Below are positions 813 through 15,138 of a stretch of DNA of 52,268 nt, piece by piece (within the stretch, counting starts at the first letter, position 1; the number at the start of each line of letters is the position of its first letter). The notes beneath the pieces are model-generated. The model did not search any database. It saw only the letters and a program-made list of their open reading frames with translations, and had not been told where the DNA came from. Origin of the DNA: Chthoniobacterales bacterium (lineage in GTDB: Bacteria; Verrucomicrobiota; Verrucomicrobiia; Chthoniobacterales; UBA6821); the NCBI GenBank assembly GCA_026461395.1, contig JAPJNA010000074.1, positions 1 through 52,268 on the forward strand, written 5' to 3'. A program made the position numbers and the translations under genes.

Positions 813-2636
813 TCAATCCTTGAGGGGCTCGACCAGCATGTTGGAAAGAAACTCCTCTCGATCCAGGAAGGGAGCCATGTCCTCAAGGGGCGCAGTGACC
901 ATGCGACCATCGGGCAGTCGCTTGGAACTGGTCTTGGGCTCGAAGCCCTGCTCCAGATCGAGCGGCACCACCACGACTTGAGGTCCATCCGCATTCAGGA
1001 CCCGCGAGATGTCTGCGGCAGGATTCTCCGTGTCGAGAAGATGGGCGGGAAGACCGTAGGCTTCCGCAAGTTTCACGAAATCAGGAAAACCGAGACCGCT
1101 CTCCGGGCCCTCCCCCACAAGGCGACCAAAGAAATTGCGCTGGGTGGATCGAATCGAGAGATAGCCACCATTTTCCAGCACGAAGACTTTCACGGGCAAC
1201 TTCAACGAGGCAAGGGTGGCAAACTCCTGCACGTTCATCTGCAGACTCCCATCTCCCGCAAGGCAGATCACTGTCCTGCCAGGATCGGCAACGGAAGCGC
1301 CGATGGCGGCGGGAAGATCATAGCCCATCGAGGCGGAACCGGAGTTACTGAAGAGGCGTTGACCTTTTTTCAGAACGCCCGCCTGAAAGGGAGTGATGCA
1401 GGCAGTGGCATTCCCGCAGGCGAAGACCGCTGCATCGGGAGCCTCAGAGAAAAGAAGCTCAATGAAATGATACTGATTGATGCGTCCGGTTGGGGCCGAG
1501 CGATGCTTTTGCAGAACGACGGGATTCTTATCCACGCGCTCGCGGCACCAGGCAATCCATGCATCGCGCTTGGAAGTATCGGTGACCTGCAACTCCCCTG
1601 CTGCGCGCAGCAGAATTTCGAGGAAGTCACGGACATCGGCCTCAATCGGAAGATCGGCTTGGAATGTCGGCTTGGAGAGTTCAGCCGGGTCGATGTCGAC
1701 CTGAGCAGTGCGTGCCGTACGGGCAAAGCTGGACCAGTTGTAACTAATTTGGCGGATGCAAAGACGGCTGCCAAGGATCAGGACAAAGTCTGCATTTTGT
1801 ACGGTAAAGTTTCCGGCACGGGTCCCGATCGTTCCCTGCCTGCCTGCATAAAGTGGATGATCAGAGGCGATCAGATCATGGGTCCATGCCGTGGCGATCG
1901 GAACCCGCAGGGTTTCAGCTACCCGGAGAAGCAAATCCCCGGCTCCAGCGAGACGCACCCCTGTGCCGGCTAGGAGGATCGGTCTTTCCGCGGAACCGAG
2001 CAAGGCGAGCACCTGCTTGGCTTTGGCTTCCAGGTCGGCTCGATCCACTTTTTTGTCATCTTCTGCAGGATCGTAAGGGCGCATGGTCTCAGGATCGACT
2101 TGTGCGGCCTGGATATCCACCGGGACGTCGATCCAGCAGGGCCCCGGTCTGCCGTTGGAAGTAAGATGGATCGCCCGCTCCAGATGGTAACGAATCGTCT
2201 CGGGTTCCGTGATCGTGACCGCGTATTTGGTGATTCCCCGGACCATCCCGATGATGTCCGCCTCCTGGTCGCCGAGTTGCCTGATCCGACCGATCAACCC
2301 ATGGGTCTGCATCATGGTCTCCCGCTTCACCTGTCCGGAGATCACAAGCATCGGAATCGAGTCGGTCCAGGCTCCGAAGACACCGTTCAGCGCGTTGATC
2401 CCCCCGGGGCCGGTCGTGACGCTGACAATGCCCGGTTTGCCGCTGACTCGTGCATAGCCCTCCGCCGCCATGGCGCAGGCCTGCTCGTGATGGCAGCAGA
2501 CATAACGGATCCCGTTGATCGCTCCCACCGCATCGTTCAGATGCATCGCTCCACCCCCCGTCACCAGAAAAACATGATCAAGGCCCCTGTCGGCAAGGAT
2601 GCGGAAGATATAATCGGCAAGACGGATCTGGCTCAT
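813..2636 (-). CDS. Thiamine-diphosphate-dependent enzyme, acetolactate synthase/YerE-like
   Basis: A full-length (607 residues) member of the TPP enzyme family. The activating glutamate is E51 in CCHHEQACAMAAEG, the central domain spans roughly 200-340, and the Mg-TPP motif starts with GDGS at 461-464 and closes with ENGGY at 488-492. True acetolactate synthases feed branched-chain amino acid synthesis, but this gene sits in a sugar cluster beside rfbF/rfbG/rfbH. In Yersinia, YerE is a TPP enzyme of this family that adds a two-carbon unit from pyruvate to a CDP-3,6-dideoxy-4-keto sugar to make the branched sugar yersiniose. A similar role is the best inference here. Its ATG overlaps the stop of the upstream methyltransferase gene (ATGA). 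A biosynthetic acetolactate synthase or another carboligase remains possible. Confidence 0.8.
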   Translation of the reverse strand: MSQIRLADYIFRILADRGLDHVFLVTGGGAMHLNDAVGAINGIRYVCCHHEQACAMAAEGYARVSGKPGIVSVTTGPGGINALNGVFGAWTDSIPMLVISGQVKRETMMQTHGLIGRIRQLGDQEADIIGMVRGITKYAVTITEPETIRYHLERAIHLTSNGRPGPCWIDVPVDIQAAQVDPETMRPYDPAEDDKKVDRADLEAKAKQVLALLGSAERPILLAGTGVRLAGAGDLLLRVAETLRVPIATAWTHDLIASDHPLYAGRQGTIGTRAGNFTVQNADFVLILGSRLCIRQISYNWSSFARTARTAQVDIDPAELSKPTFQADLPIEADVRDFLEILLRAAGELQVTDTSKRDAWIAWCRERVDKNPVVLQKHRSAPTGRINQYHFIELLFSEAPDAAVFACGNATACITPFQAGVLKKGQRLFSNSGSASMGYDLPAAIGASVADPGRTVICLAGDGSLQMNVQEFATLASLKLPVKVFVLENGGYLSIRSTQRNFFGRLVGEGPESGLGFPDFVKLAEAYGLPAHLLDTENPAADISRVLNADGPQVVVVPLDLEQGFEPKTSSKRLPDGRMVTAPLEDMAPFLDREEFLSNMLVEPLKD

Positions 2637-3835
2637 TCGACTCCTTTCAGCAAGGTCACGACGGGATTGGGAAGTTGCAACGCACGAATGGAATCCTGAA
2701 TGGAATCCGCATTGATGAGCGAACAGACAAGAATAGGCGTTTGCGGCGCATGGATTTCCGAACCTGCAATGACTTTGGTGCCATGCAATAACTTGCCCTG
2801 ATTGATCGGGTTTCCATCGATGAAAGCCGCTATCTTGGTATCGCCCAGACAGGTATCCGCAAGCAGTTTCATGGTCAACTGGCCTGTTCCCCAGACAATG
2901 AGTTCGGGGTATTTGGTGATCAACTTCCCGATACTGGCATCGATCCTGGCCATCAGGGCCTCCGAATCTCCGATATACTTCTCAAGATCTCCTTGGAGTT
3001 TGCCATCTTTGACGATGGGCATGGGTTCCTCCGACTTCCGTGCAAACCAAAAGAGCGCCGGGTAAGGCACATCTTTGGAAGAGTGAATGTTCTTGGTTCC
3101 GCTGAGTTCCGGAACGAAACGGTTGCGGCGGCAAAGGTTGGCCACACCCATCTCGGAAAAGTGATTGATATGCTCGGTGTTGAAATCCTGAAACGGCGCC
3201 ACAAGGAACTCGGCGTAGCGTGAGGCATCTGGAACCTCGATGTAGACCCACCCGCCGGGATTCAGGAGTCCGTACACCAGATCCATGGCGGCACCAAGAT
3301 CGCGGACATGCTCCATGACATGGCTCAGAATAATGCCATCGAATGTTCCGGCTTCCACAGGAACGTTGGCCAGTGTGCCGACCCATGCGTCTCCCTTAGA
3401 AAGCTTTCGGGTTGCCGCAACACAGTCTGGCGAAGGGTCAATGCCGCAGATATTTAGGAACCCCTTGGACTGCAGGGCGGTAAGGAGCCCTCCATTCGCG
3501 CATCCAATATCCAAGATACGGGCGCTATGGTTGTCGCAGAAATCTGCAACCTGATCCGCCAAGCCGTCCAGACGCTCCTTATCCCAGGAAAGAACGCCGG
3601 CACCCGTCGAGGTAGCATTGTCAGCATACTTGGACATGCCTGCGTAGTAGGCATCATATCCCACCTGATCGACCGAGGTATCGTAAAAGGCAAACCCGCA
3701 CCCGTCACAGACAACATAGTCACAAACGGGAGGAAGGGGGTGTCCTTCGCTTAATTGAAAATGCTGGGTATGGATCACCCTGCCAGCAAGGCTGTCACAG
3801 ATCGGACAAGGACGTAGGAGAGCTTTTTCGTGCAT
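2633..3835 (-). CDS. Zinc-binding class I SAM methyltransferase (sugar C-methyltransferase type)
   Basis: Starting at ATG 3835 the protein has a putative zinc site near the N-terminus (CPIC at residues 10-13 and CDGC at 43-46). A SAM-binding motif ILDIGCANGG follows at about 107-116, and SHVMEH near 175 matches the acid/His loop of class I methyltransferases. A C-terminal Rossmann-like part contains VWGTGQ near 310. This order (zinc domain, Methyltransf domain, C-terminal domain) is that of sugar C-methyltransferases such as those making branched deoxysugars, so it fits a CDP- or TDP-keto sugar substrate. A longer reading from TTG at 3874 is possible; it would overlap the upstream gene by 8 bases and adds 13 residues ahead of the zinc domain. 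Neither start has a clear ribosome binding site. Confidence 0.78.
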   Translation of the reverse strand: MHEKALLRPCPICDSLAGRVIHTQHFQLSEGHPLPPVCDYVVCDGCGFAFYDTSVDQVGYDAYYAGMSKYADNATSTGAGVLSWDKERLDGLADQVADFCDNHSARILDIGCANGGLLTALQSKGFLNICGIDPSPDCVAATRKLSKGDAWVGTLANVPVEAGTFDGIILSHVMEHVRDLGAAMDLVYGLLNPGGWVYIEVPDASRYAEFLVAPFQDFNTEHINHFSEMGVANLCRRNRFVPELSGTKNIHSSKDVPYPALFWFARKSEEPMPIVKDGKLQGDLEKYIGDSEALMARIDASIGKLITKYPELIVWGTGQLTMKLLADTCLGDTKIAAFIDGNPINQGKLLHGTKVIAGSEIHAPQTPILVCSLINADSIQDSIRALQLPNPVVTLLKGVE

Positions 3836-3866: not shown

Positions 3867-4553
3867 TTAGACAAATCGCAGAAGCGACTCTCTCATGGGG
3901 ATCTGAACACGCAGTCCCATTTCGGATGCCTCACGCTCCACGGAGGGAACGTACTGGGAAACTGGGAAAGTGAGGTTGGGTGGTGAAGACTCAGTAGGTA
4001 CGCCAATGGTTGATGCCACGATTTGGGCCAGATCGGCGATCGTTATCTCCTGATCGGAGCCGACATTGTAGGGACGACATGCCGCACCCTTGAAGAGGAT
4101 GGTCCAGAGCCAGACCACCAGATCGGCAGCGTAGAGATAGGAGCGGTATGGGCTTCCATCCTTCATTTGAATCGGATCCCCTCGCATGGCGTCGCGGATG
4201 AAGTTACCGATGGCGAAGTGGGCATCGAGCGAGAGATGCGGCCCGACAAAGGCAAAGCACCGGGCGAGGGTCGTCTCCAGGCCATGCTCCAGATGAGCCA
4301 TGGCGCAGAGGAGTTCCCCGACTCGCTTTCCCTCTCCATAAGCAGAGTTCTGATCCATCGTATCGGGCGCACCCTGATAACTCTCGGCTGCCATCGCACA
4401 GGACTGCTCATGATGGCAATAGACTTTCTTGATCCCGCTATTCCTTCCAAAGGCATCTGTGAGATGCATCGCAGCTCCACCCGTTACCATGAAAATATAG
4501 CCGATGCCATGGGTTGATAGGGTGCTAACGATGTAATCGGCAACGCGAATCAT
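3867..4553 (-). pseudogene. Chimeric gene: front of a TPP enzyme fused to the back of an epimerase
   Basis: The 228-residue frame is intact but joins two unrelated folds. Residues 1-59 (ADYI, VTGGAAMHL, CHHEQSCAMAAES) align with the first 60 residues of the TPP enzyme at 813-2636, including its catalytic Glu. Residues 60-228 (GAPDTMDQNSAYGEGKRVGE onward) align with residues about 166 to the end of the epimerase at 10111-11157, including the YGEGK tyrosine and lysine. The product lacks the TPP/Mg motif and the NAD-binding glycine loop, so neither activity is expected. It is most likely a deletion scar between copies of the two genes from a duplicated or related cluster. The frame is still coupled to the upstream membrane-protein gene by an ATGA overlap. 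The join lies near 4374-4385. A new function cannot be excluded. Confidence 0.8.
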
Positions 4554-6478
4554 TTTGAAATACCCTTGGGTTTCATCAGTATATACCCCGGCATTTTACC
4601 GATTGGATCACAAGTTGCCAGAAGTGCACGGGTGAGTTCCACCTCAGGCAGGTAGGGTGCATTTTTTACAGTGCTGTGGACTGGGTATAACAAGAGTCCC
4701 GACAGAAATTCGGAAATTCCTTTCTGATAGCTTGGGATATCGATGGAGACAGAACTTTGCTGAATCATGGATTCTGGGATCAGAAGCAAATCAAAGCCAA
4801 GACATTCCCTTGCCGCCCTCTCGATATCTTTCGGAGCATACCACTCAGGAATCGGTGATTCATTATAGATGATTCCAAAGTTTTTCTGAAGTTTCAAAAA
4901 TCGCTCGATTCCAATGTCAGCACCGAATGGAATCCCAACTTTCTTGTCTTTTACTAGATCATCGAATCCAGCGGGGTAGGGTACGGTCTTGCGCCAATCG
5001 AGCCGGGAACTCCTCGGTGACCAAGATCGCTGAAATGTCCAAGCATCCTGCCATTGTTGAACAAGTTCAGAATTTTTAGAGTAAGAATCCCTAACCTGAA
5101 ATGCTTGTGTAAAAAGAGCTCGATATCCGTCCCAGTATGAGATCTGGCCCATCAGTACAACGACAAGTGCAAAGAAGGCCGTCCAGCCATACAGAGCTGA
5201 CTTGCCGATGGAGGAGGCCACCGCAAACATCATCACCAAGATCATCAAACCGTTGATTACCACATGACCGGGATCACACCGTCCATAGGAGGCTGCAAGA
5301 AGAAGAAGCGCCGCAAAACTGATCGCTGCAGCAAGTGAAGCGCGTCTATCGGCCCTCCGAATCCATGCGGCAGAAAGCAATCCGGGAATAACAACCAATG
5401 ATGACCCCAGAAGCATCAGGTTAGTCAGATTGGGATAAATAGGGAAATTATTTGCTCCAGATGAGAACGAGAGAACGCCGTAGAGATATCCCTTGAAACA
5501 GAGACTCATAACCGCAAAGCAAAGGGCAACGGCCCCCAAGATCGCCAACCCGCTTGGCAACGTATCTGAGAGGATCGCTACCGAAGCATATGCCAACAGC
5601 CCTACTGAGATCGCGATGCCCATTTCCGGAGAGATTAGAAAACAGGCCGCACTGGATAGAAGGGCTGAGATTCCTGCGATCAGCCACTTTGGCATGCCTC
5701 CTAATGGTAGGGAGAGGCTTCGGTCAAATAAGACAATCGCAGCCGGAAGGATGGTGAAACGCAGGGGCGAATAATTCAACCCCATCGTGATGCACATCCA
5801 CATCACGAGGCAAAGGAGCAGAACCAGTGGACGCAGGGTGTCGTAGATCCTGATCGCCCTGAGAAAAATAAATACACACAGGAACCCCAGCACAAAGGAA
5901 ACAGCCACGCACCAGGCATAGGCATCCTCAATTCCGAGATGACCGAAAGAGAGGCGGCTCAACCACAGCGGGACATAGAGCAGAGCCGGGCCGTAGTTGT
6001 ACTGAAAGTCATGATAGGGGCGATATCCGAGCGCAAGCAGATCGATCCGTCCCAAGAAATAAGCAATCTCTCCACCCCAATAAGGCATGACCAGAATTCC
6101 ATCCCACCAAAGATTTGAGAAAAATATCGCAGTTGAACACGCGATGAGAACTACGTATTCCCATTTGGCCTTTTCAAAAGGCGGAAACAGTCGATCACCA
6201 TTGCTTAGCCACTCCAGCGATGCTACTGACGAGACCGGCTTGAAGAACCATGTTTTAAGAATTGTAAGGAAGGCAAGACAGAGCCCGAGTCCGAGCACTC
6301 CCGCCTTATTGTTGAACCCAAAAGCGTAAGACTCACCCTTCACGGGATGGAGACCTCCCACATGCCAAGGAAACACAAAGAGCATCGCTCCCGCGACGAT
6401 CCAGAGAAAGATTTCAACAAGTTGTTTTCTATTCTTGAGAATATTAACGCCGGAACTTTTCATTATATCTAGTTGCAT
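4550..6478 (-). CDS. Multi-pass membrane protein, GT-C glycosyltransferase-like
   Basis: This 642-residue protein has about eleven hydrophobic segments between residue 20 and 460 and a soluble C-terminal third. An early extracytoplasmic-type loop contains GGEIAYFLGRIDLLALGYRPY followed by DFQYNYGPALLYVPLW, resembling the first-loop acidic motif and following YGP/W pattern of PMT/ArnT-like GT-C enzymes that use polyprenyl-phosphate sugars. It lies directly downstream (15-base gap) of the DprE1-, DprE2- and UbiA-like genes, which would supply a polyprenyl-phosphate pentose. A transferase using that donor is therefore a reasonable inference. I see no specific signature of the mycobacterial arabinosyltransferases. 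An ATG five codons further in is an alternative start. Confidence 0.6.
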   Translation of the reverse strand: MQLDIMKSSGVNILKNRKQLVEIFLWIVAGAMLFVFPWHVGGLHPVKGESYAFGFNNKAGVLGLGLCLAFLTILKTWFFKPVSSVASLEWLSNGDRLFPPFEKAKWEYVVLIACSTAIFFSNLWWDGILVMPYWGGEIAYFLGRIDLLALGYRPYHDFQYNYGPALLYVPLWLSRLSFGHLGIEDAYAWCVAVSFVLGFLCVFIFLRAIRIYDTLRPLVLLLCLVMWMCITMGLNYSPLRFTILPAAIVLFDRSLSLPLGGMPKWLIAGISALLSSAACFLISPEMGIAISVGLLAYASVAILSDTLPSGLAILGAVALCFAVMSLCFKGYLYGVLSFSSGANNFPIYPNLTNLMLLGSSLVVIPGLLSAAWIRRADRRASLAAAISFAALLLLAASYGRCDPGHVVINGLMILVMMFAVASSIGKSALYGWTAFFALVVVLMGQISYWDGYRALFTQAFQVRDSYSKNSELVQQWQDAWTFQRSWSPRSSRLDWRKTVPYPAGFDDLVKDKKVGIPFGADIGIERFLKLQKNFGIIYNESPIPEWYAPKDIERAARECLGFDLLLIPESMIQQSSVSIDIPSYQKGISEFLSGLLLYPVHSTVKNAPYLPEVELTRALLATCDPIGKMPGYILMKPKGISK

Positions 6479-6492
6479 TGTGGGATCCGGAT

Positions 6493-7254
6493 TTAAAGCC
6501 TCGATTTAAGGAACAGTTGCTCAGGAATATTCCTGATGACGGCCATGATTAAGCGCCAGTATTCCGGTGTATAGATCTGCACGGACCTTGTTTCGATTGC
6601 CCTAACGATGTCTGCAGCCACTTTAATGGGCGAAGCGCACAGAGGCGAAGAAGGATTTACGATGCCCTTGGTCATCGGTGTATTTACCATTCCTGGCTTC
6701 ACTGTGATCACCCGTACGCCGGTTCCATGGTATCGATGCCTCATTCCGTCCAGTAGTGCGGATAAACCCGCTTTGCTGGCGCCGTAGAGATAGTTGCTAC
6801 CACGCCCCCGATCGCCTGCAACCGATGAAATCCCGACGATGGTGCCCCCTCCTGCATGGCTCATCTTATTTGCAAAAGCCTGGAGCACTAATGCAGAAGA
6901 CGTGAGATTGATATCAAATGTCTGCTTTAACAGTTGAGTATTCTTTTCGGCTTCCCCCTGAGGATACATGACGCCCCAACACAGTATTACGCATCCTATG
7001 TTGCCTCCCTTCAACTTTCTAGCACACTCTTCCGGGAGCGAACTCATCCTATCCAGCTCGCTTGCATCAGCTGCAATGGTTTCAACTGTTATCCCGTATC
7101 TGATTTTTAGATCAGAGGCTTGAATTTCAAGCTCCTCTGCAGAACGAGCAACGAGAACTAAGGGCGTCCCCTTACGCACTAACTGATCAGCAATCTCTCG
7201 GGCAATTCCAGAGAGGGATCCAAGAATAACACAGGGTAAATTCATCGTTTTCAT
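6493..7254 (-). CDS. SDR-family reductase, DprE2-like (decaprenyl-phospho-2-keto-ribose reductase type)
   Basis: A 253-residue short-chain dehydrogenase with the nucleotide loop GSLSGIA at 12-18, catalytic serine in GISSVAGDRG (S144), and Y157/K161 in YLYGASKAG. The wording around the active site (SSVAGDRGRGSNYLYGASKAGL) closely follows DprE2 of Mycobacterium, which reduces the 2-keto intermediate made by DprE1 to give polyprenyl-phosphoryl-D-arabinofuranose. The gene starts immediately after the stop of the DprE1-like gene with no gap, which strongly supports a paired role. A generic SDR role is the alternative. Confidence 0.78.
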   Translation of the reverse strand: MKTMNLPCVILGSLSGIAREIADQLVRKGTPLVLVARSAEELEIQASDLKIRYGITVETIAADASELDRMSSLPEECARKLKGGNIGCVILCWGVMYPQGEAEKNTQLLKQTFDINLTSSALVLQAFANKMSHAGGGTIVGISSVAGDRGRGSNYLYGASKAGLSALLDGMRHRYHGTGVRVITVKPGMVNTPMTKGIVNPSSPLCASPIKVAADIVRAIETRSVQIYTPEYWRLIMAVIRNIPEQLFLKSRL

Positions 7255-8619
7255 TCAAAAGCAAAGACCAACTCTCCTAGCTTGATCGGATATGAAGAAA
7301 CATTCCGGATCGATTTGTTTTTTTATATTCAGAAACTCTTCCCTCCGCGGATACATGGCTGCAAATGTCTTGGCATCCATCATTGAGTCCTTGGCTAGGT
7401 AGAGGCGCCCCTGATGCTCGAGAAGTATCTCATCGAGAGATTTGATTAGGGGCATAAGTTGTGCCCCAAGATTCGGAATATCCAAGGCAAGAGTGTAACC
7501 TCTGTGGATGTAGGATAGGGGTGCCAGATTTGCTTCCCCACACCGCTTGATCACGGCAAGAAACGAAGCTGCTCCATGGGAGGAAACGGTCTCCAGGATT
7601 TTCCGCAACCCTGTCTGGGCTGTCTTATCAGGGAAAAGAGCCTGATATTGAATGAACCCCCTTTTGCCATAGATGCGATTCCAGCTTGAAATTCCATCAA
7701 GCGGATAAAAGAAACTGTCATAAGGAACAATCTCCTCACGATCCCGCTGCTTGAAATAATAAGCCTGATTAAAAAGATTTACGGAAAAAGGGTTTAACAC
7801 CCAGTCTGGGAAATCAAAAGGGACGCTTGGCAAGCGCGCTGATGCCCGAACTCTAAATGGATCTGATCGTAGTGAGGACGTCAAAGCACGGGCCCCTGTA
7901 TTATTTGCAAGCATCAATACGGACCTCCCCAAACCGGAACCTCGAGAGAGGCAGTCAATCCATCCCACCGAGTATCTGTACTGCTGTTCCGTGGAAGCCA
8001 GCATTGAAAGAACTGCCTCTAAATTGCGGCAACGATGATAGCGGACAGAATAGTAACTGCTTTCAACCCTTCTTAATTGAATGCGGGCATCACGAATGAA
8101 TCCGGTGAGTCCCATGCCTCCAACGGTTGCCCAAAAAACATCGGGGTTTTTACTGGGACTACATTCCATGATTGATCCATCTGCAAGAATCAGGGTCACC
8201 CCCTTCACCCAATTTCCAAAACTGCCATCCACATGATGATTCTTTCCGTGTACGTCAGCCGCAATTGCCCCGCCAACCGAAACATATTTGGTGCCGGGAG
8301 TAGTCGGGAGAAACCATCCATGAGGGAGTGAAACCTTGATGATATCCTCTAACGTTACTCCAGCTTCACAATGAATTATTCCATGTTGAGGGTCGAATGA
8401 CAGAAATCGATTCAAATAGGTTTGTCCTATCACGGTGCCTTCCCCTGATACAGAAGAGTCTCCGTAGGATCTTCCCATACCCCGCGCTATAACACCCGAT
8501 GCAGCATGATCACAGAATAAGGCTGCTAGCTTCATGCGGCTTTCGGGTTCGATCAACCTGCACTCTGCAGGATGAAAGCGTCCCCAACACGACAGACTGG
8601 TTCTTATACCCGGGATCAT
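7255..8619 (-). CDS. FAD-linked oxidase, DprE1-like (polyprenyl-phosphoryl ribose 2-oxidase type)
   Basis: From ATG 8619 the protein is 454 residues, close to DprE1. It has the FAD loop ARGMGRSYGDSS (about 45-56), GKNHHVDGSFG (125-135, the DprE1 GKNHH block) and the C-terminal blocks KRCGEANLAPLS, GRLYLAKDS (Lys410, matching the catalytic DprE1 lysine) and MYPRREEF. At the place of the DprE1 cysteine attacked by benzothiazinones (WNICVDFP) this protein reads YTLALDIP, so the cysteine is an alanine (A378). DprE1 oxidises the 2-hydroxyl of polyprenyl-phosphoribose in the cell envelope. A GTG at 8661 gives 14 more residues and overlaps the UbiA gene; I preferred the ATG because the WGR block then falls at the family's usual distance from the start. 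Confidence 0.82.
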   Translation of the reverse strand: MIPGIRTSLSCWGRFHPAECRLIEPESRMKLAALFCDHAASGVIARGMGRSYGDSSVSGEGTVIGQTYLNRFLSFDPQHGIIHCEAGVTLEDIIKVSLPHGWFLPTTPGTKYVSVGGAIAADVHGKNHHVDGSFGNWVKGVTLILADGSIMECSPSKNPDVFWATVGGMGLTGFIRDARIQLRRVESSYYSVRYHRCRNLEAVLSMLASTEQQYRYSVGWIDCLSRGSGLGRSVLMLANNTGARALTSSLRSDPFRVRASARLPSVPFDFPDWVLNPFSVNLFNQAYYFKQRDREEIVPYDSFFYPLDGISSWNRIYGKRGFIQYQALFPDKTAQTGLRKILETVSSHGAASFLAVIKRCGEANLAPLSYIHRGYTLALDIPNLGAQLMPLIKSLDEILLEHQGRLYLAKDSMMDAKTFAAMYPRREEFLNIKKQIDPECFFISDQARRVGLCF

Positions 8620-8648
8620 GAGGTTATTTGGCTTACAACAATGCCGTT

Positions 8649-10121
8649 TTACCCGGGCCACGCAAACTGCGCCATGGAGAGGAGGAGCAGGACAGCGGCC
8701 CCTATCCCCCAGCTCACTCGGTCCTTGAGCGCAAAAAATACCGGGTCATCGTGCATTAAACCCCTTGCGACAAGCATCCAAAAACGAGCTATCCAGTAAA
8801 TACCTAGCGGCGCAAGTAACAAAAGAAGATCAGGCGTGCGATATAGTTTCAGCACTTCAGGGCTGTTGACGTAAAGAACAAGAACCATCACGGATACAAA
8901 TCCGGCAGATATACCACAGATAGAAATGATCGACTGATCGTTGGGAATATATCCACGGGTATGCTCTGTGACCTCGGATGATTTCAGCAAGAAAATCTCC
9001 TGGTAGCGCTTTCCGAATGCCAAGCAGAGGAAGAAAAAAAGACTGAAGGCCAAAAGCCATTTTGAAACCTCAACATTGGAAGCAACCCCTCCGGCAAAGA
9101 TTCTTAACGAGTAGAAAAGGGAAAGAAGCACCACATCCAGAATAGCGACGGACTTGATCCAACAAGTATAGAGCACATTGGAAAAAAGATAGAGTAAGAG
9201 AATCAATGCAAACCCTTTGCCAACGCTCGATAGGGCGAGCGACACCGCTAGGACAATCAAGATCAATGATGCCATCACGCCGCGCCAAAGAGGAATTGCC
9301 CCAGAGGCAAGAGGCCTTCGCTTCTTCAATGGATGGGAGCGATCCTTGAAAACGTCTGAACAATCATTGAACAGGTAAACGCCGGATGCGGCAAAACAGA
9401 ATGAGAGGGCCGCAACCGAAGTCGAGATAATCACAGCAGGACTTGTTGTTTTATGTGCAAGCAGAAGCGGCAGAAAAAGAAGCACGTTTTTTGACCATTG
9501 GCGAATGCGCAAGAGTGTTATCCAGCTTGAAAAATATCCTATTCCTCTTGATTCCAATACTTTCAAATGAGGAACTGCTTTCCTACATTGGGATTCAAGC
9601 GAGTGGCTTCTTGAAACCATCCAGGCTTCGGAGGCTTTTTCCCAGATCGGAATGTCGGATGCCGAATCTCCGACATAGGCATAATGCCTTTCATTCAGCG
9701 ACGCATTGTATTCAGCGATGGCTTCGGCCTTTGAACTCCCCTTAAGGTTCGTATCGCCATTTGTAGCCAAGACTGCATCAAAAATACCCAAGTGCTCGTT
9801 GATTTTAAAAGCAATGTTCCGGTGTGTCGCCGTGGCAAGTATGACCGAGCCACCTTTGTCTTTGTGCTTCCGCACATGATCGACAACAACTTCGGACCAG
9901 GGAAGATGCTCAACCGGCACTTCAACGCGTTCCGATAACCATTTCTTAAAGAGGGCTTTTCCCCTGAAACTGACACAAATCATTAAAGGAATCAGAAATG
10001 GTTTTTGAAAAGCTAACCTTATGATTTGCTCCCACAGAATATCAGTTCCAATTAAAGTGTCATCCAGATCCACATATAGCGGTATGGCGCGTCCAGACAA
10101 TTTGGAATATTCAGCATTCAT
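8649..10121 (-). CDS. HAD hydrolase fused to UbiA-family prenyl-phosphate pentosyltransferase
   Basis: A 490-residue two-domain protein. Residues 1-190 are a HAD phosphatase: DLDDTLIG at 18-25, the TAT block near 97-99, a lysine region KGSSKAEA, and GDSASD at 151-156. Residues 200-490 are a polytopic UbiA-type transferase with NDCSDVFKDR at 252-261 followed by HPLKKRRPLASG, the pattern of Rv3806c, which moves phosphoribose from PRPP onto decaprenyl phosphate. In mycobacteria the phosphate of that product is removed by a separate phosphatase; here the HAD domain may do that job in the same chain, which is inference. The start overlaps the end of the epimerase gene by 11 bases, and the DprE1/DprE2-like genes follow directly. 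Confidence 0.82.
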   Translation of the reverse strand: MNAEYSKLSGRAIPLYVDLDDTLIGTDILWEQIIRLAFQKPFLIPLMICVSFRGKALFKKWLSERVEVPVEHLPWSEVVVDHVRKHKDKGGSVILATATHRNIAFKINEHLGIFDAVLATNGDTNLKGSSKAEAIAEYNASLNERHYAYVGDSASDIPIWEKASEAWMVSRSHSLESQCRKAVPHLKVLESRGIGYFSSWITLLRIRQWSKNVLLFLPLLLAHKTTSPAVIISTSVAALSFCFAASGVYLFNDCSDVFKDRSHPLKKRRPLASGAIPLWRGVMASLILIVLAVSLALSSVGKGFALILLLYLFSNVLYTCWIKSVAILDVVLLSLFYSLRIFAGGVASNVEVSKWLLAFSLFFFLCLAFGKRYQEIFLLKSSEVTEHTRGYIPNDQSIISICGISAGFVSVMVLVLYVNSPEVLKLYRTPDLLLLLAPLGIYWIARFWMLVARGLMHDDPVFFALKDRVSWGIGAAVLLLLSMAQFAWPG

Positions 10122-11157
10122 GATTCATCTTGCTGAGTTTTAACCATTCACTCGTTTTCAGAATCGACTTTTCCAATGATGTTTCTGAGATTCTCAACAT
10201 CAGGCGCTTGCTTTTTGAAGTATCGGGAACGTAGCGGGATGGGGAAGCATTTGGTTTATCAGAAGAAATCTCAAGTGGCTGAACGGCTCCCCCAAGTTCA
10301 GAAGCTACTGTTTCAGCAAGCTGAGAAATCGTGATCTCCTGGTCGGAGCCAACATTGTAAGCATGGCATACCAATCCTTTGAAGAGGATCGTCCAAAGCC
10401 AGACAGCGAGATCGGCCGCATAGAGATAAGAGCGGTAAGGGGTGCCATCATTGACTCTGATGGGCTCACCCCTCATCGCATCCCGGATGAAGTTTCCTAT
10501 GGCGAAGTGTGCGTCGAGAGGAAGATGGGGGCCGACAAAGGCGAAGCACCGGGCGATGGTGGTCTCCAAGCCATGCTCCTGATGAGCCATGGAGCAGAGG
10601 AGCTCTCCGACGCGCTTTCCCTCTCCATAAGCTGAGTTGGGATCCATCGAATCAGGTGCTCCGCTGTAGGTCTCGGGAATATGCGTCATCTCCGGTGGCT
10701 GCTTGCCATAGACGGCTCCGGAACTCACAAAAAGGAAGCGCTTCGCACCAGAGGCTACTGAAAAATCGAGGGTGCGTTGGGTTCCCCTGATGATCGTGTC
10801 GAGCATCTCGGCCGGTGGAACCGGAGCGCCAGAGGTGGTGCCGGCATGAATCACATGGGTGAAGGCTCCTTCAGGAAACTCAAAATCCCGGACATCCCCC
10901 CGGTGCAACGTGATCGATGATTCTCCCGCAAGATGGGGAACCTTGGCGTAAAAGGCCGCTGGATCACGAGAAAGACCGACAAGCGAAGCTCCCAGATTCA
11001 GAGCAGAGTTTGCATAAGCGAAGGTCTCAAGCAGCCAGACACCGAAGAATCCTGTGGCCCCAGTGACAAAGATCCTCCCTCCACGCAACTGCTCCCAGAG
11101 AGGACGCGTATGCGCGAGCACATGCTCGAGATCTTCCTTGGGGAGAGGTTTATTCAC
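10111..11157 (-). CDS. NAD-dependent epimerase/dehydratase (extended SDR), CDP-sugar 4-reductase candidate
   Basis: A 348-residue extended SDR with TGATGFFG at 32-39, VSSGAVYG near 144-151 and Y177/K181 in SAYGEGKRVGE. In rfbFGH clusters an enzyme of this type reduces or epimerises C4 of the CDP-3,6-dideoxy-4-keto sugar (paratose/abequose synthase role), or acts after the YerE-type step. Which of these applies cannot be decided from sequence. The start codon is GTG at 11157, and it is the first three bases of a palindromic repeat arm, so the repeat apparently supplies the start. The C-terminal half is duplicated in the chimeric gene at 3867-4553. Confidence 0.8.
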   Translation of the reverse strand: MNKPLPKEDLEHVLAHTRPLWEQLRGGRIFVTGATGFFGVWLLETFAYANSALNLGASLVGLSRDPAAFYAKVPHLAGESSITLHRGDVRDFEFPEGAFTHVIHAGTTSGAPVPPAEMLDTIIRGTQRTLDFSVASGAKRFLFVSSGAVYGKQPPEMTHIPETYSGAPDSMDPNSAYGEGKRVGELLCSMAHQEHGLETTIARCFAFVGPHLPLDAHFAIGNFIRDAMRGEPIRVNDGTPYRSYLYAADLAVWLWTILFKGLVCHAYNVGSDQEITISQLAETVASELGGAVQPLEISSDKPNASPSRYVPDTSKSKRLMLRISETSLEKSILKTSEWLKLSKMNHEC

Positions 11158-11240
11158 AGGGATGAAGGGGATAAAAGGGATGAGAAAGCTTTGGTTACCT
11201 GTTTTTTTACTCTATCCCATTCATCTCCTTCATCCCTGTG
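11155..11240. repeat. 86-bp palindromic element between rfbH and the epimerase gene
   Basis: Two 28-base arms (11155-11182 and 11213-11240) are inverted copies of each other with 24 of 28 positions matching; both begin CACAGGGATGAAGG from the outer end. The spacer is 30 bases. The outer end on one side gives the GTG start of the epimerase gene and the other gives the last codons and TGA stop of rfbH (reading SQG then stop). The arms match those around the GxxExxY gene at 12814-13312 and those of the insertion inside rfbH, so this looks like a gene-less derivative of one mobile family. Confidence 0.85.
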
Positions 11241-12816
11241 AGATGCCATTGTCCCTATCCCTCACGAAGGCCCGGATGGTCTCAATCTCGTAGTCCATCA
11301 TCTCTTTGGTAAGGCCTGGGTAAGTTCCTAGGAAGATCGCCTGATTCATGATGGTATCGGCTCCAGTCATCTCGCCAACTACACGGAAGGATTCAGGGCG
11401 ATCCTTGCGGAGTTGTACGAAGACCGGCTGACGGAGAAGGTTCCCGCCGAAGAACATACGGTTGCCGATTTTATTTGAATCCAAATAACGAGCGAGATCC
11501 GTGTGTTTGAAAGCGGCGGATGGTTTCACCCGCAGCATGAATCCGAACCAACTACAGTTGCTCCGGCACCCAGAGCTGTCCCACTGAAAAGTTGAGGAGT
11601 TGCACAGGGATGAAGGAGATGAAAGGAATGGTCCTTCTGTATCCCATTTATCCTTTTTATCCTTGTGAGATATCCAAGCTGTCCCGTGAGTTGGGAGGCT
11701 GAAGTCAAAGACATCTTCCAGATCGGCAAGACCCGAACGAAGATAATCCCAGTTCTTGGCCCGAGCATCGATGAAGGCGGGCAGTTTTTTAAGTTGCTGT
11801 CGGCCAATTGCAGCCTGGGGATCAAGGGGCTTCAGATTATACCCAAGGTGGCTGTAGGTATACTTGTGGTCGTAACCGGGGGGGAGCTCGCCGAGGTTCC
11901 ATCCGAAACGCTTGCCACAGGTGTCGTCCTTGCCCGAGGGGCACCAGCAGTCACGCCCCCAGTCACGGAAACTCTCCGCATAGGTTTTAAGGGGCGGGCG
12001 GGAAACGATATTCACGGCACCTCCCTCTCCCATGGTCAGATGATGGGGAGGGTAGAATGACTGTGTGGAGATGTCTCCCCAGGTGCCGGTGTAACGGGTA
12101 ATGTGTGTGCCGTTCCCTGGAATACCGGGAGAGTTCTCTGTGAATCCAAGGGCTTTGGCCCTATCGATCGGCATCGAGTAGGTGCATCCGAGGGCATCGC
12201 AATTATCCTCGACCAGCCAGAGATCGTGCTTCCTGCAAAACTCCAGCACGGAGGCGACATCGAAAGGATTGCCCAGCGCATGGGCGATCATCACGGCCTT
12301 GGTCTTTCCTTCGCAGAAGGCGGACTCTAGTTGCTCTACACGGATATTTCCCGTGGTCGGATCGTTGTCGATAAAAACAGGTATGGCACCCAGCTGGAGA
12401 ATCGGCGCAACGGTTGTAGGAAATCCTGCGGCAACTGTGATCACCTCGTCACCGGGAATGATCCGCTTGTGATCAGGAAGCTTGTGGGTGGTGAGAGTGG
12501 CAAGAGCCACGAGGTTGGCCGAGGAACCGGAGTTCACGAGCAGGGAATATTTCACCCCGAGAAATGAGGCTAACTCTTTCTCAAAGGCTTCACCTTCAGG
12601 CCCAAGCGTGAGCCAGAAATCAAGCGTGCTGCCGACAGCTGCCTCGACCTCGTCCTCAGTGAAGACGCGTCCCGCGTACGGCACAGTAGTTTCTCCGGGA
12701 ACAAAGGCGGGGCGACCAGCATCGCCTCCCGGGCGCTGTGCTGAATGGGCACGGGAGGAATATTCCCGCGTCAGGCGCAGAATCTCGGCTTTCAGTTCAG
12801 GAAGGGATTTATTCAC
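11230..12816 (-). CDS. rfbH: CDP-4-dehydro-6-deoxyglucose 3-dehydratase (E1), with an in-frame insertion
   Basis: A 528-residue DegT-fold enzyme of the E1/RfbH type. The PLP lysine is replaced by histidine in SFYPPHHLTMGEGG (253-266), and iron-sulphur cysteines are visible at 290, 292 and 300 (CWCPSGKDDTC) plus C206 in VEDNCDALG. It removes the 3-hydroxyl of CDP-4-keto-6-deoxyglucose together with a reductase. The usual length is about 435-450. The excess comes mostly from two places: residues about 214-242, seen in some family members, and residues about 381-416 (WISHKDKKDKWDTEG onward), which are encoded by a palindromic insertion. The family block SWFGF resumes in frame at 422. The start is GTG at 12816 inside a repeat arm, and the stop is supplied by another repeat arm. 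Whether the lengthened enzyme works is unknown. Confidence 0.88.
   Translation of the reverse strand: MNKSLPELKAEILRLTREYSSRAHSAQRPGGDAGRPAFVPGETTVPYAGRVFTEDEVEAAVGSTLDFWLTLGPEGEAFEKELASFLGVKYSLLVNSGSSANLVALATLTTHKLPDHKRIIPGDEVITVAAGFPTTVAPILQLGAIPVFIDNDPTTGNIRVEQLESAFCEGKTKAVMIAHALGNPFDVASVLEFCRKHDLWLVEDNCDALGCTYSMPIDRAKALGFTENSPGIPGNGTHITRYTGTWGDISTQSFYPPHHLTMGEGGAVNIVSRPPLKTYAESFRDWGRDCWCPSGKDDTCGKRFGWNLGELPPGYDHKYTYSHLGYNLKPLDPQAAIGRQQLKKLPAFIDARAKNWDYLRSGLADLEDVFDFSLPTHGTAWISHKDKKDKWDTEGPFLSSPSSLCNSSTFQWDSSGCRSNCSWFGFMLRVKPSAAFKHTDLARYLDSNKIGNRMFFGGNLLRQPVFVQLRKDRPESFRVVGEMTGADTIMNQAIFLGTYPGLTKEMMDYEIETIRAFVRDRDNGISQG
11603..11667. repeat. 65-bp palindromic element inserted inside rfbH
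   Basis: Arms at 11603-11630 and 11640-11667 are inverted copies (about 19 of 28 matching) with a 9-base spacer and the same outer end CACAGGGATGAAGG/CACAAGGAT as the neighbouring elements. It lies within the rfbH coding frame. A direct repeat AGCTGTCCC occurs at 11574-11582 and 11677-11685, bracketing the insertion; with one extra base in the first copy the net gain fits 34 codons. The arms have diverged more than those of the copy at 11155-11240, suggesting an older insertion. Confidence 0.8.
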
Positions 12817-13312
12817 AGGGATATATGGGATTAAAGGGATGCCGATGAAAACGGATGACTTCTGTTGACTACGTTGAGCGTAAATAATTCTTTCAGCAAT
12901 TTACACTTATAGGTTTTTAAGGAACCGGTTGTTGTAGCGACGGTATTCTAATTTTGGGGTTCCAAAATTCAGAATTAATCCAACAGGTTTTGTAGAGCCT
13001 CTCAAGTAGTTCAGAAGCTGCATCTCATGCTCGGGGGCAATTGCTTTTGCGGCTTTGAGTTCAATAATGAGTAGATCCTCAACCAGTAAATCGATGAAGA
13101 ATTGGCCCACAAGCTTACCTCTAAACTCAATCTGCAAGCCTACTTGTTGCTCAACCTTGAGTCCTTTTTCTTGAAGAGCAATAAAGAGGGCTTTCTCGTA
13201 AACGCTCTCTAAAAAACCAATTCCCAACTCGTTGGATACTTCAAAGGCACAAGAAAGCACCTGTTCCGTGCATTCCGCATACTCCATCCCTTTTATCTCC
13301 TTCATCGCTGTA
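12814..13312. mobile_element. 499-bp element: GxxExxY gene between 28-bp inverted repeats
   Basis: The arm at 12814-12841 (CACAGGGATATATGGG start) and the arm at 13285-13312 (TACAGCGATGAAGG when read inward) are inverted copies matching at 21 of 28 positions. Between them lies only the GxxExxY gene and about 65 AT-rich bases. The same arms without a gene occur at 11155-11240 and 11603-11667. No transposase is present, so the element is either moved by a factor elsewhere or the GxxExxY protein takes part. The left arm contains the GTG of rfbH, the right arm the stop of rfbG. I infer mobility from the repeated arms; it is not shown. Confidence 0.65.
12907..13305 (-). CDS. GxxExxY protein
   Basis: A 132-residue protein with the family hallmark GIGFLESVYEKAL at about 27-39, followed by FRGKLVGQFFIDLLVEDLLIIELKAAKAI. 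The last block has the spaced D...E-x-K pattern of PD-(D/E)XK nuclease folds, which the GxxExxY family resembles; no activity is established. The first seven residues (MKEIKGM) are encoded by the repeat arm that borders the element. The ATG overlaps the rfbG stop (ATGA), so translation may be coupled to the polysaccharide operon. It has no obvious part in sugar synthesis and looks like cargo of an inserted element. Confidence 0.85.
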   Translation of the reverse strand: MKEIKGMEYAECTEQVLSCAFEVSNELGIGFLESVYEKALFIALQEKGLKVEQQVGLQIEFRGKLVGQFFIDLLVEDLLIIELKAAKAIAPEHEMQLLNYLRGSTKPVGLILNFGTPKLEYRRYNNRFLKNL

Positions 13313-14363
13313 GATCCTTATATTCAGCGATCTGGGATTGAGTGATTTCCAAAGGTGAAACGGTTCCGGCATGAACCTGTGTATACCAGGCAACTGTCTT
13401 TGAAATTGTCTCCTCAAATGCCCACTTGGGTTTCCAGTCGAGCAATCGAAAAGCTTTATCAATTGAAAGATTCAAGAGGGTGGCTTCATGTAGGGCGGCA
13501 GGATCACTGGCATCAGTCCACTCACCCTTCCGATGTTTGAGAATTTCCATAATAAGATCGGAAACTGTCCGATTGGAATCCGGTCCGGGTCCAAAGTTGA
13601 ATGCCGTTGCAAACGATGCGCTGCCAGCCAGAGATGCTGCCAACATCAAATAGCCGGAAAGAGGTTCGAGCACATGCTGCCAAGGACGAACTGCTCTGGG
13701 GTTACGGACGGAGATACTTTCTTTGTTGTCCAAGGCCCTCATGGCATCGGGAACAATTCTGTCTTCCGCCCAATCACCACCGCCGATGACATTGCCTGCT
13801 CGGGCGCTGGCAATGCGAACCGGACCATTCTGAAAATAGGATTTCCGGTAGGCAGCCGTAGCGATTTCGGCCATAGCTTTGCTCGAGCTGTAGGGGTCGT
13901 GACCGCCGAGCAAATCACTCTCTTCGTAGTCTCTACCCGACTCATGGTTCTCGTAGCACTTGTCTGTAGTCACGACTAAGGCTACGCAGGGATGATAAAC
14001 ACCTCGAAGTGCCTCGAGCACGTGAATCGTACCCATGACATTAGTCTCATAGGTCTCGACGGGGATTGCATAGGAGCGCCTCACAAGTGGTTGCGCCGCC
14101 ATATGAATCACGAAATCAGGCCGGAAAGAGTGGATGGATTTGCCAACAGTCTCCCCATTCCGAATATCGGCCACTTCATGCTCTAGTCTACCGACCAATT
14201 CAAGCTGATCGAAGAGTGCCGGTTTTGTGTCGGGAGTCAGGGCATATCCACGGACAATGGCCCCAAGATCAAGAAGCCACTCAGAGAGCCAAGATCCCTT
14301 GAATCCGGTGTGACCGGAAAGCCAAACCCGCTTTCCTTCAAATGACTGCCTTAAGTTTACCAC
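13302..14363 (-). CDS. rfbG: CDP-glucose 4,6-dehydratase
   Basis: An extended SDR that converts CDP-glucose to CDP-4-keto-6-deoxyglucose. Near the N-terminus it has RVWLSGHTGFKGSWL (glycine-rich NAD loop with the RfbG-typical GHTGFKG), then HMAAQPLVRRSY, VVTTDKCYEN (active-site region), DPYSSSKAMAE (Tyr/Lys pair) and GGGDWAEDRIVPD. From GTG 14363 the protein is 353 residues, the usual size; the longer open frame upstream overlaps rfbF and is out of family. The start falls 7 bases after the rfbF stop, within an 11-base direct repeat. The C-terminus ends in the arm of the GxxExxY element, which gives the TGA stop. Confidence 0.92.
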   Translation of the reverse strand: MVNLRQSFEGKRVWLSGHTGFKGSWLSEWLLDLGAIVRGYALTPDTKPALFDQLELVGRLEHEVADIRNGETVGKSIHSFRPDFVIHMAAQPLVRRSYAIPVETYETNVMGTIHVLEALRGVYHPCVALVVTTDKCYENHESGRDYEESDLLGGHDPYSSSKAMAEIATAAYRKSYFQNGPVRIASARAGNVIGGGDWAEDRIVPDAMRALDNKESISVRNPRAVRPWQHVLEPLSGYLMLAASLAGSASFATAFNFGPGPDSNRTVSDLIMEILKHRKGEWTDASDPAALHEATLLNLSIDKAFRLLDWKPKWAFEETISKTVAWYTQVHAGTVSPLEITQSQIAEYKDLQR

Positions 14364-14379
14364 GTTATGTTTACCACGT
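14355..14379. repeat. Short tandem duplication at the rfbF-rfbG junction
   Basis: GTTTACCACGT occurs twice, at 14355-14365 and 14369-14379. One copy encodes the end of RfbF and its TAA stop, the other holds the GTG start of rfbG. Confidence 0.8.
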
Positions 14380-15138
14380 TTTCCAGGAGGCTTTATCGTT
14401 TTGCCAAAGCTCCTCGAGAAGCTGTTTGTCACGAAGTGTGTCCATGGGCTGCCAGAAGCCGCGGTGCTGATGGGCGTAAAGTTGTCCTTCAGCGGCAAGT
14501 CTCTTGAGGGGCTCCTGCTCCCAGGTCGTGGAGTCATCCTTGATGTATTCCAGCACGGAGGGCTCCAAGACAAAGAATCCTCCATTAATCCACCCTCCAT
14601 CACCCTCCGGCTTCTCGATGAATCCCTTAACAGAGTTGCCCTCCACGTGGAGTGCTCCAAAGCGGCCCGGCGGTTGTACGGCTGTGACCGTTGCCTTTTT
14701 GCCCGAGGCCTTATGAGCCGAGATGGATGCCGGAATGTCCACATCCCCCACTCCGTCACCGTAAGTCATGCAGAAGGTCTCATTACCAACGTAGTTGGCG
14801 ACTCTCTTCAAACGACCCCCGGTCATGGTATTGTCACCTGTATCGACGATGGTGACACGCCATGGTTCGGCGTGTTTTTCGTGCACCTCCATGGAGTTCT
14901 TCTCCATATCGAAAGTCACATCGGACATATGAAGGAAGTAATTCGCGAAGTACTCCTTGATGACATATCCCTTATATCCGGCGCAGATGATGAAATCTCG
15001 GATTCCATGGGATGAGTAGATCTTCATCACGTGCCAGAGAACAGGCTTCCCACCGATCTCGACCATTGGCTTAGGACGGGAGGCCGTTTCCTCACTGATG
15101 CGAGTGCCGAGACCCCCCGCCAGAATGACGCATTTCAT
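14371..15138 (-). CDS. rfbF: Glucose-1-phosphate cytidylyltransferase
   Basis: A 255-residue nucleotidyltransferase that makes CDP-glucose from CTP and glucose-1-phosphate, the entry step to CDP-dideoxy sugars. The N-terminal signature [12 protein letters not shown] (7-18) and [15 protein letters not shown] are clear, followed by YGDGVGDVD (metal-binding Asp) and the C-terminal [14 protein letters not shown] block typical of RfbF. Length matches the family. It is the first gene of the leftward cluster, preceded by about 230 bases of gene-free DNA that must hold the promoter. Confidence 0.95.

Follow-up and report, generated by a model that had tools for sequence, protein, structure and literature searches.

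Homology-facilitated illegitimate recombination (HFIR) has been described in Acinetobacter, S. pneumoniae and P. stutzeri, and these reports portray an exchange with one diffuse homologous boundary, one sharp boundary of a few base pairs of microhomology and foreign DNA between them, the reported anchors being 3-10 nt (PMC6382021, PMC8504540, PMC3240628). A comparable outcome is known from the Salmonella group D2 O-antigen, a CDP-dideoxyhexose cluster formed from D1 and E that carries H-repeat and wzy remnants, in which gene remnants stand at clear-cut junctions and near-identical flanks enclose a divergent centre (PMC3715488).

The locus considered here resembles both. It lies in a 52,268-nt stretch of DNA from a Chthoniobacterales bacterium (the window), where a chimeric open reading frame (ORF) probably marks the right-hand seam left when a cassette was replaced within a CDP-deoxysugar or branched-sugar cluster. 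It differs from the HFIR cases in that we infer the event from a natural locus, and from Salmonella D2 in that no insertion element is seen at the join and two enzyme genes are fused in frame in the remnant. The features of the cluster are as follows.

813-2636, minus strand: resident type A ThDP enzyme, YerE/JanthE-like, 92.6% amino acid identity to the same-genus genome G004
2633-3835, minus strand: resident methyltransferase, from the conserved ATG
3867-4553, minus strand: chimeric ORF of 228 aa, the probable scar (ORF list, BLASTP and nucleotide alignment, Pfam)
3867-3869, minus strand: premature stop TAA, where G004 has TCA (comparison with G004)
3867-4376, minus strand: C part of the chimera, codons 60-228, assigned to the 3' half of a resident G004-like epimerase gene (75% amino acid identity to G004, tree support 97, collinear DNA from 4380, GC)
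4377-4380, minus strand: join, TTAT common to the type-C ThDP gene and the resident epimerase gene (sequence alignment)
4377-4553, minus strand: N part of the chimera, codons 1-59, assigned to a "type C" YerE-like ThDP enzyme (72.9% amino acid identity to G018/G020, clade support 97, GC)
4550-6478, minus strand: inserted block, 642-aa multi-membrane protein with no Pfam or NCBIfam match
6493-7254, minus strand: inserted block, DprE2-like SDR, below the NCBIfam cut-off
7255-8661, minus strand: inserted block, DprE1-like FAD oxidase, 479 bits against a cut-off of 500
8649-10121, minus strand: inserted block, HAD-UbiA prenyltransferase (NF006088)
10111-11157, minus strand: intact epimerase/reductase that came with the block
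11230-12816, minus strand: RfbH, with the diffuse left boundary, G004-like above about 12.6 kb and at background below about 12.1 kb
13302-14363, minus strand: resident CDP-glucose 4,6-dehydratase RfbG

A first-pass annotation had described the ORF at 3867-4553 as an open, in-frame chimera of the neighbouring TPP enzyme and epimerase. This observation was right, as shown by alignments to both families and by independent Pfam matches, and the frame is indeed open on the minus strand. Residues 2-59 align with the ThDP enzyme at 813-2636 (60% amino acid identity, E 4e-21; 69% nucleotide identity over 175 bp), and the rest aligns with the epimerase at 10111-11157 (58% amino acid identity over the whole BLASTP alignment; 81% nucleotide identity over 350 bp, E 2e-93), the latter bearing out a reported DNA similarity between 4141-4380 and 10440-10680. 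In Pfam, TPP_enzyme_N matches residues 3-60, covering only model positions 2-59 of 119, and Epimerase matches up to residue 165, starting only at model position 91. With the similarity of both parts far beyond chance, the chimera is confirmed as real at the level of sequence.

The earlier view that both active sites are incomplete also holds. The chimera lacks the central domain and the C-terminal ThDP/Mg-binding domain of a functional YerE-like ThDP enzyme, as well as the Rossmann GxxGxxG half of the epimerase, including the GATGFFG motif of the intact gene. E49 (in HHEQ) and Y72/K76 are still present, which we take to be the ThDP-enzyme Glu and the SDR Tyr-x-x-x-Lys pair, respectively. We predict a product without catalytic activity. 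The proposed coupling to a neighbouring gene stands at one end, where the start of the chimera overlaps the stop of the upstream membrane-protein gene (ATGA, 4550-4553), but not at the other, where the methyltransferase start kept in relatives is the ATG at 3835, 31 nt beyond the chimera stop, and not the overlapping TTG at 3874. The nonsense change from TCA to TAA relative to G004 strips the last few residues of the chimera, and the DNA for WHTSQ can still be read downstream.

The parentage of the two halves required more revision. The N part falls inside the type-C ThDP clade of genomes G018, G020, G067, G129 and G063 with 97% support, on 59 residues only, and does not group with the adjacent type A enzyme; the match to the neighbouring TPP enzyme exists, but type-C enzymes of G018 and G020 are closer (73% amino acid identity). 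Most of these five genomes carry the type-C gene downstream of their epimerase gene. Similarly, the C part does match the neighbouring epimerase (66% amino acid identity), but it is nearer to the G004 epimerase (75%), to which it is sister in the tree with 97% support. The N-terminal half of the window's intact epimerase, for its part, groups with that of G003 with 99% support. By these comparisons, neither half of the chimera was copied from the neighbouring gene of the window. A simple tandem duplication of the window's own epimerase and ThDP genes is ruled out because both halves cluster with other lineages.

With the nearest relatives standing in for the parents, DNA alignment places the join at 4377-4380, where the halves meet in frame at the 4-bp microhomology TTAT and 7 of 9 surrounding bases are shared. 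The ThDP-specific sequence ends with the G of GAGAG, the epimerase-specific sequence starts with the C of CAGG, and TTAT lies between them. At the protein level, ES-Y of the ThDP enzyme meets ET-Y of the epimerase, and the frame may therefore have survived either by chance or through tolerance of short in-frame products. The length of TTAT falls within the 3-10 nt of microhomology at the illegitimate end in HFIR, although a 4-bp match at a join can also arise by chance. A homologous deletion is ruled out because the parents belong to unrelated families that share only these 4 bp at the join. Thus, of the original proposal of a deletion between related copies in an older, longer cluster, what survives is a scar of two genes whose cluster was longer or otherwise different, present in this genome alone among those searched, while the related copies do not. 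The chimera is most likely a recombination scar of an already known kind, with its origin now corrected.

Comparison with congeners indicates what was replaced. The undisturbed order RfbG, RfbH, epimerase, methyltransferase, type A ThDP enzyme is found in G004 and G003 and in part in G006, all of the same genus, with nothing between epimerase and methyltransferase. The window reads RfbG, a small PD-(D/E)XK gene, RfbH, epimerase, UbiA, DprE1, DprE2, membrane protein, chimera, methyltransferase and ThDP enzyme; relative to G004, the space from RfbH to the methyltransferase is now occupied by a foreign segment comprising the intact epimerase, UbiA, DprE1, DprE2, the membrane protein and the start of a type-C ThDP gene. 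A single blastn alignment to G004 (85.9%, 4393 bp) begins at the join and runs from window position 4380 to 1, spanning the 3' half of the epimerase, the methyltransferase and the ThDP gene. On the other side, positions 13315-15000, which include RfbG, match G004 at 93.2% over 1692 bp, and the 5' part of RfbH matches it at 86-100% before identity drops from 93-100% to the genus background within RfbH, between about 12.6 and 12.1 kb, with no exact crossover seen.

Base composition changes at the same seam: GC content is 47-49% in UbiA, DprE1, DprE2 and the membrane protein, 49.2% in the N part of the chimera, 57.5% in its C part and 53-59% in the methyltransferase and ThDP genes. Together with the collinearity, this step indicates that the block ends at the seam, which therefore separates donor from resident sequence. 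Between the two ends, as in HFIR, the DNA is foreign: at the limits used, G004 yields no match to UbiA, DprE1 or the membrane protein, and the other members of the genus searched yield none to DprE1 or UbiA. The left flank is itself a mosaic, in that the small gene between RfbG and RfbH (82%) and the spacer between RfbH and the epimerase (96%) resemble G007 and not G004.

Because the window is collinear with G004 on both sides of the block, replacement explains the chimera without an undocumented older tandem cluster. A search for such an ancestor, which the first-pass annotation had suggested, yielded the undisturbed order of G004 and no tandem form in the genus. In the sequence of events that we favor, the starting state would be a G004-like resident cluster of RfbG, RfbH, epimerase, methyltransferase and type A ThDP enzyme. 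Linear incoming DNA would pair with it in RfbH, where a homologous crossover would leave no scar, and the other end would be joined through the TTAT microhomology inside the resident epimerase gene. This join would truncate the donor ThDP gene beyond codon 59 and leave the resident epimerase with its 3' half alone. The frame would have stayed open by luck, and the chimera would still be driven by the donor start, which overlaps the stop of the membrane-protein gene. The intact incoming epimerase and the type A ThDP enzyme would supply the functions. HFIR involves RecA-dependent uptake of linear DNA; in this respect, ComEC and DprA families are present in the genome and allow DNA uptake; both are widespread and are no proof of competence.

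We infer the one-step route, because searches with the membrane protein, DprE1 and UbiA as queries found no donor cassette in which the membrane protein is followed by an intact type-C ThDP gene. Partial likenesses occur in G294, which has a relative of the membrane protein (39%) without the rest, and in G158, which has a UbiA-DprE1-DprE2 set without the rest. Viral contigs yielded no relative, the only matches in plasmids were remote, of epimerase type and under 60% identity, and a scan of genome contigs gave only epimerase matches of 35-38%.

A two-step route would lead to an identical final product: a foreign cluster could have come to lie in tandem beside the resident one, followed by an illegitimate deletion from codon 59 of the type-C ThDP gene to about codon 165 of the resident epimerase. 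This is close to the first-pass proposal, except that the endpoints lack homology, and partial tandems do occur, as in the partly duplicated cluster of G056 (RfbH and epimerase, then an RfbH 3' end and another epimerase). However, it needs an additional unseen step, its tandem ancestor was not found in the genus, and a left-flank identity to G004 that stops inside RfbH suits direct replacement; we therefore regard it as rather unlikely. An assembly artefact fusing two strains or loci deserves hardly any credence. The genome is a fragmented draft of 80 contigs, but the 4 bp shared at the join by the parents' nearest relatives are too short for a k-mer misjoin, the window contains no N, both of its flanks fit a single G004-like backbone, and similar relics exist in other genomes.

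That the chimera might instead be a working protein, such as a truncated subunit with a binding or regulatory role toward the ThDP enzyme or the epimerase, seems very improbable. In its favor, the frame is open, the start is coupled to the preceding gene, and near-invariant epimerase residues are retained except for P111S. Moreover, in a two-rate codon model of the C part (165 codons, 7 sequences), omega was 0.19 on the chimera branch and 0.14 elsewhere (p 0.38), so that this branch test, itself uninformative, detected no significant relaxation of selection. Yet dN/dS does not show function either, because the chimera branch also spans time before the fusion, and a recent scar would look alike; the result means a recent scar or weak constraint. 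Against a function, there is also the premature stop, the cofactor-binding halves of both enzymes are gone, and the chimera occurs in one genome only. The same architecture is absent from 16 genomes of the genus, 213 of the order and a sample of 384 of the class, and among the order and class genomes only its own aligns over residues 1-228. Conservation in many distant genomes, which had been named as the sign of a real two-part protein, is thus not seen; the chimera is not a conserved two-domain protein and is probably not a new two-part enzyme.

Returning to cassette replacement, the gene content suggests what may have been exchanged. RfbG and RfbH point, by family, to a CDP-6-deoxy or 3,6-dideoxy sugar. 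YerE-like enzymes (YpYerE and JanthE) add a carbon branch to such deoxysugars, and the present locus is similar in gene content, in that an intact type A ThDP enzyme adjoins RfbG, RfbH and an epimerase/reductase, whereas the chimera retains 59 residues of such an enzyme and no more (PMC12247030). The best PDB match of the type A enzyme is 8rph/8rpi/8rpj (405.8 bits). Because the acquired UbiA-DprE1-DprE2 set resembles by family the decaprenyl-phospho-arabinose route, an arabinose-type decoration may have been gained in the event, and the 642-aa membrane protein is a possible GT-C type glycosyltransferase. The UbiA-DprE1-DprE2 set (6493-10121) here stands within a deoxysugar cluster.

Truncated core genes recur in this cluster. 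Among the approximately 27 genomes of the order in which the epimerase locus was read, 5, including the present one, carry such a relic: the 3' end of an epimerase gene, preceded by a DUF4143 ATPase gene, in G001; a frameshifted epimerase piece directly before the type-C ThDP gene in G067; an RfbH 3' end and a second epimerase in G056 (locus L048, 10251-18095: RfbH, epimerase, four genes, RfbH 3' end, second epimerase); and an RfbG 3' end after a PIN-domain-like gene in G007. From genome to genome, the flanks are shared, and what varies is the ThDP gene together with the genes that separate it from the epimerase. Together with the relics, this pattern suggests that the cluster behaves as a cassette-exchange site. 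We tentatively raise the possibility, as yet doubtful, that exchange at this site is recurrent in the order, with one homologous and one illegitimate end, that its scars differ in age, from the young in-frame scar here to the decayed one in G067, and that such seams occasionally yield new expressed fusion proteins. With relics in 5 genomes, this mode of exchange is open to comparative study. The locus offers a clear natural example of surface-sugar cassette swapping: tree, GC content and collinearity tell donor from resident parts, and the position of the seam is known to within 4 bp. It is also a warning for annotators, as an intact-looking ORF with two Pfam matches may be a scar.

Several smaller features accompany these clusters. 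In G007 (locus L044, 2983-4104), antitoxin-like and PIN-domain-like toxin genes, recognized by eye, stand between the intact RfbG and the duplicated RfbG 3' end. The small PD-(D/E)XK gene (PF13366) in the RfbG/RfbH interval of the window, at 12907-13305, is 82% identical in nucleotides to a decayed copy in G007. The RfbH of the window (11230-12816) and the RfbH and RfbG of G004 and G007, enzymes conserved in other respects, contain low-complexity inserts that keep the frame and are specific to a lineage, for example NNQKPTTPHKLPA and SSNQQPTTSNQQQ. Finally, a purine-rich 25-mer, GGGATGAAGGGGATAAAAGGGATGA, occurs at 15 places in the genome with up to 3 mismatches, compared with 0 for the reversed control, and in the window it lies at 11159-11183 and 13284-13308. 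Both here and in the G007 cluster it marks gene starts, and exchange could use it as an anchor of homology.
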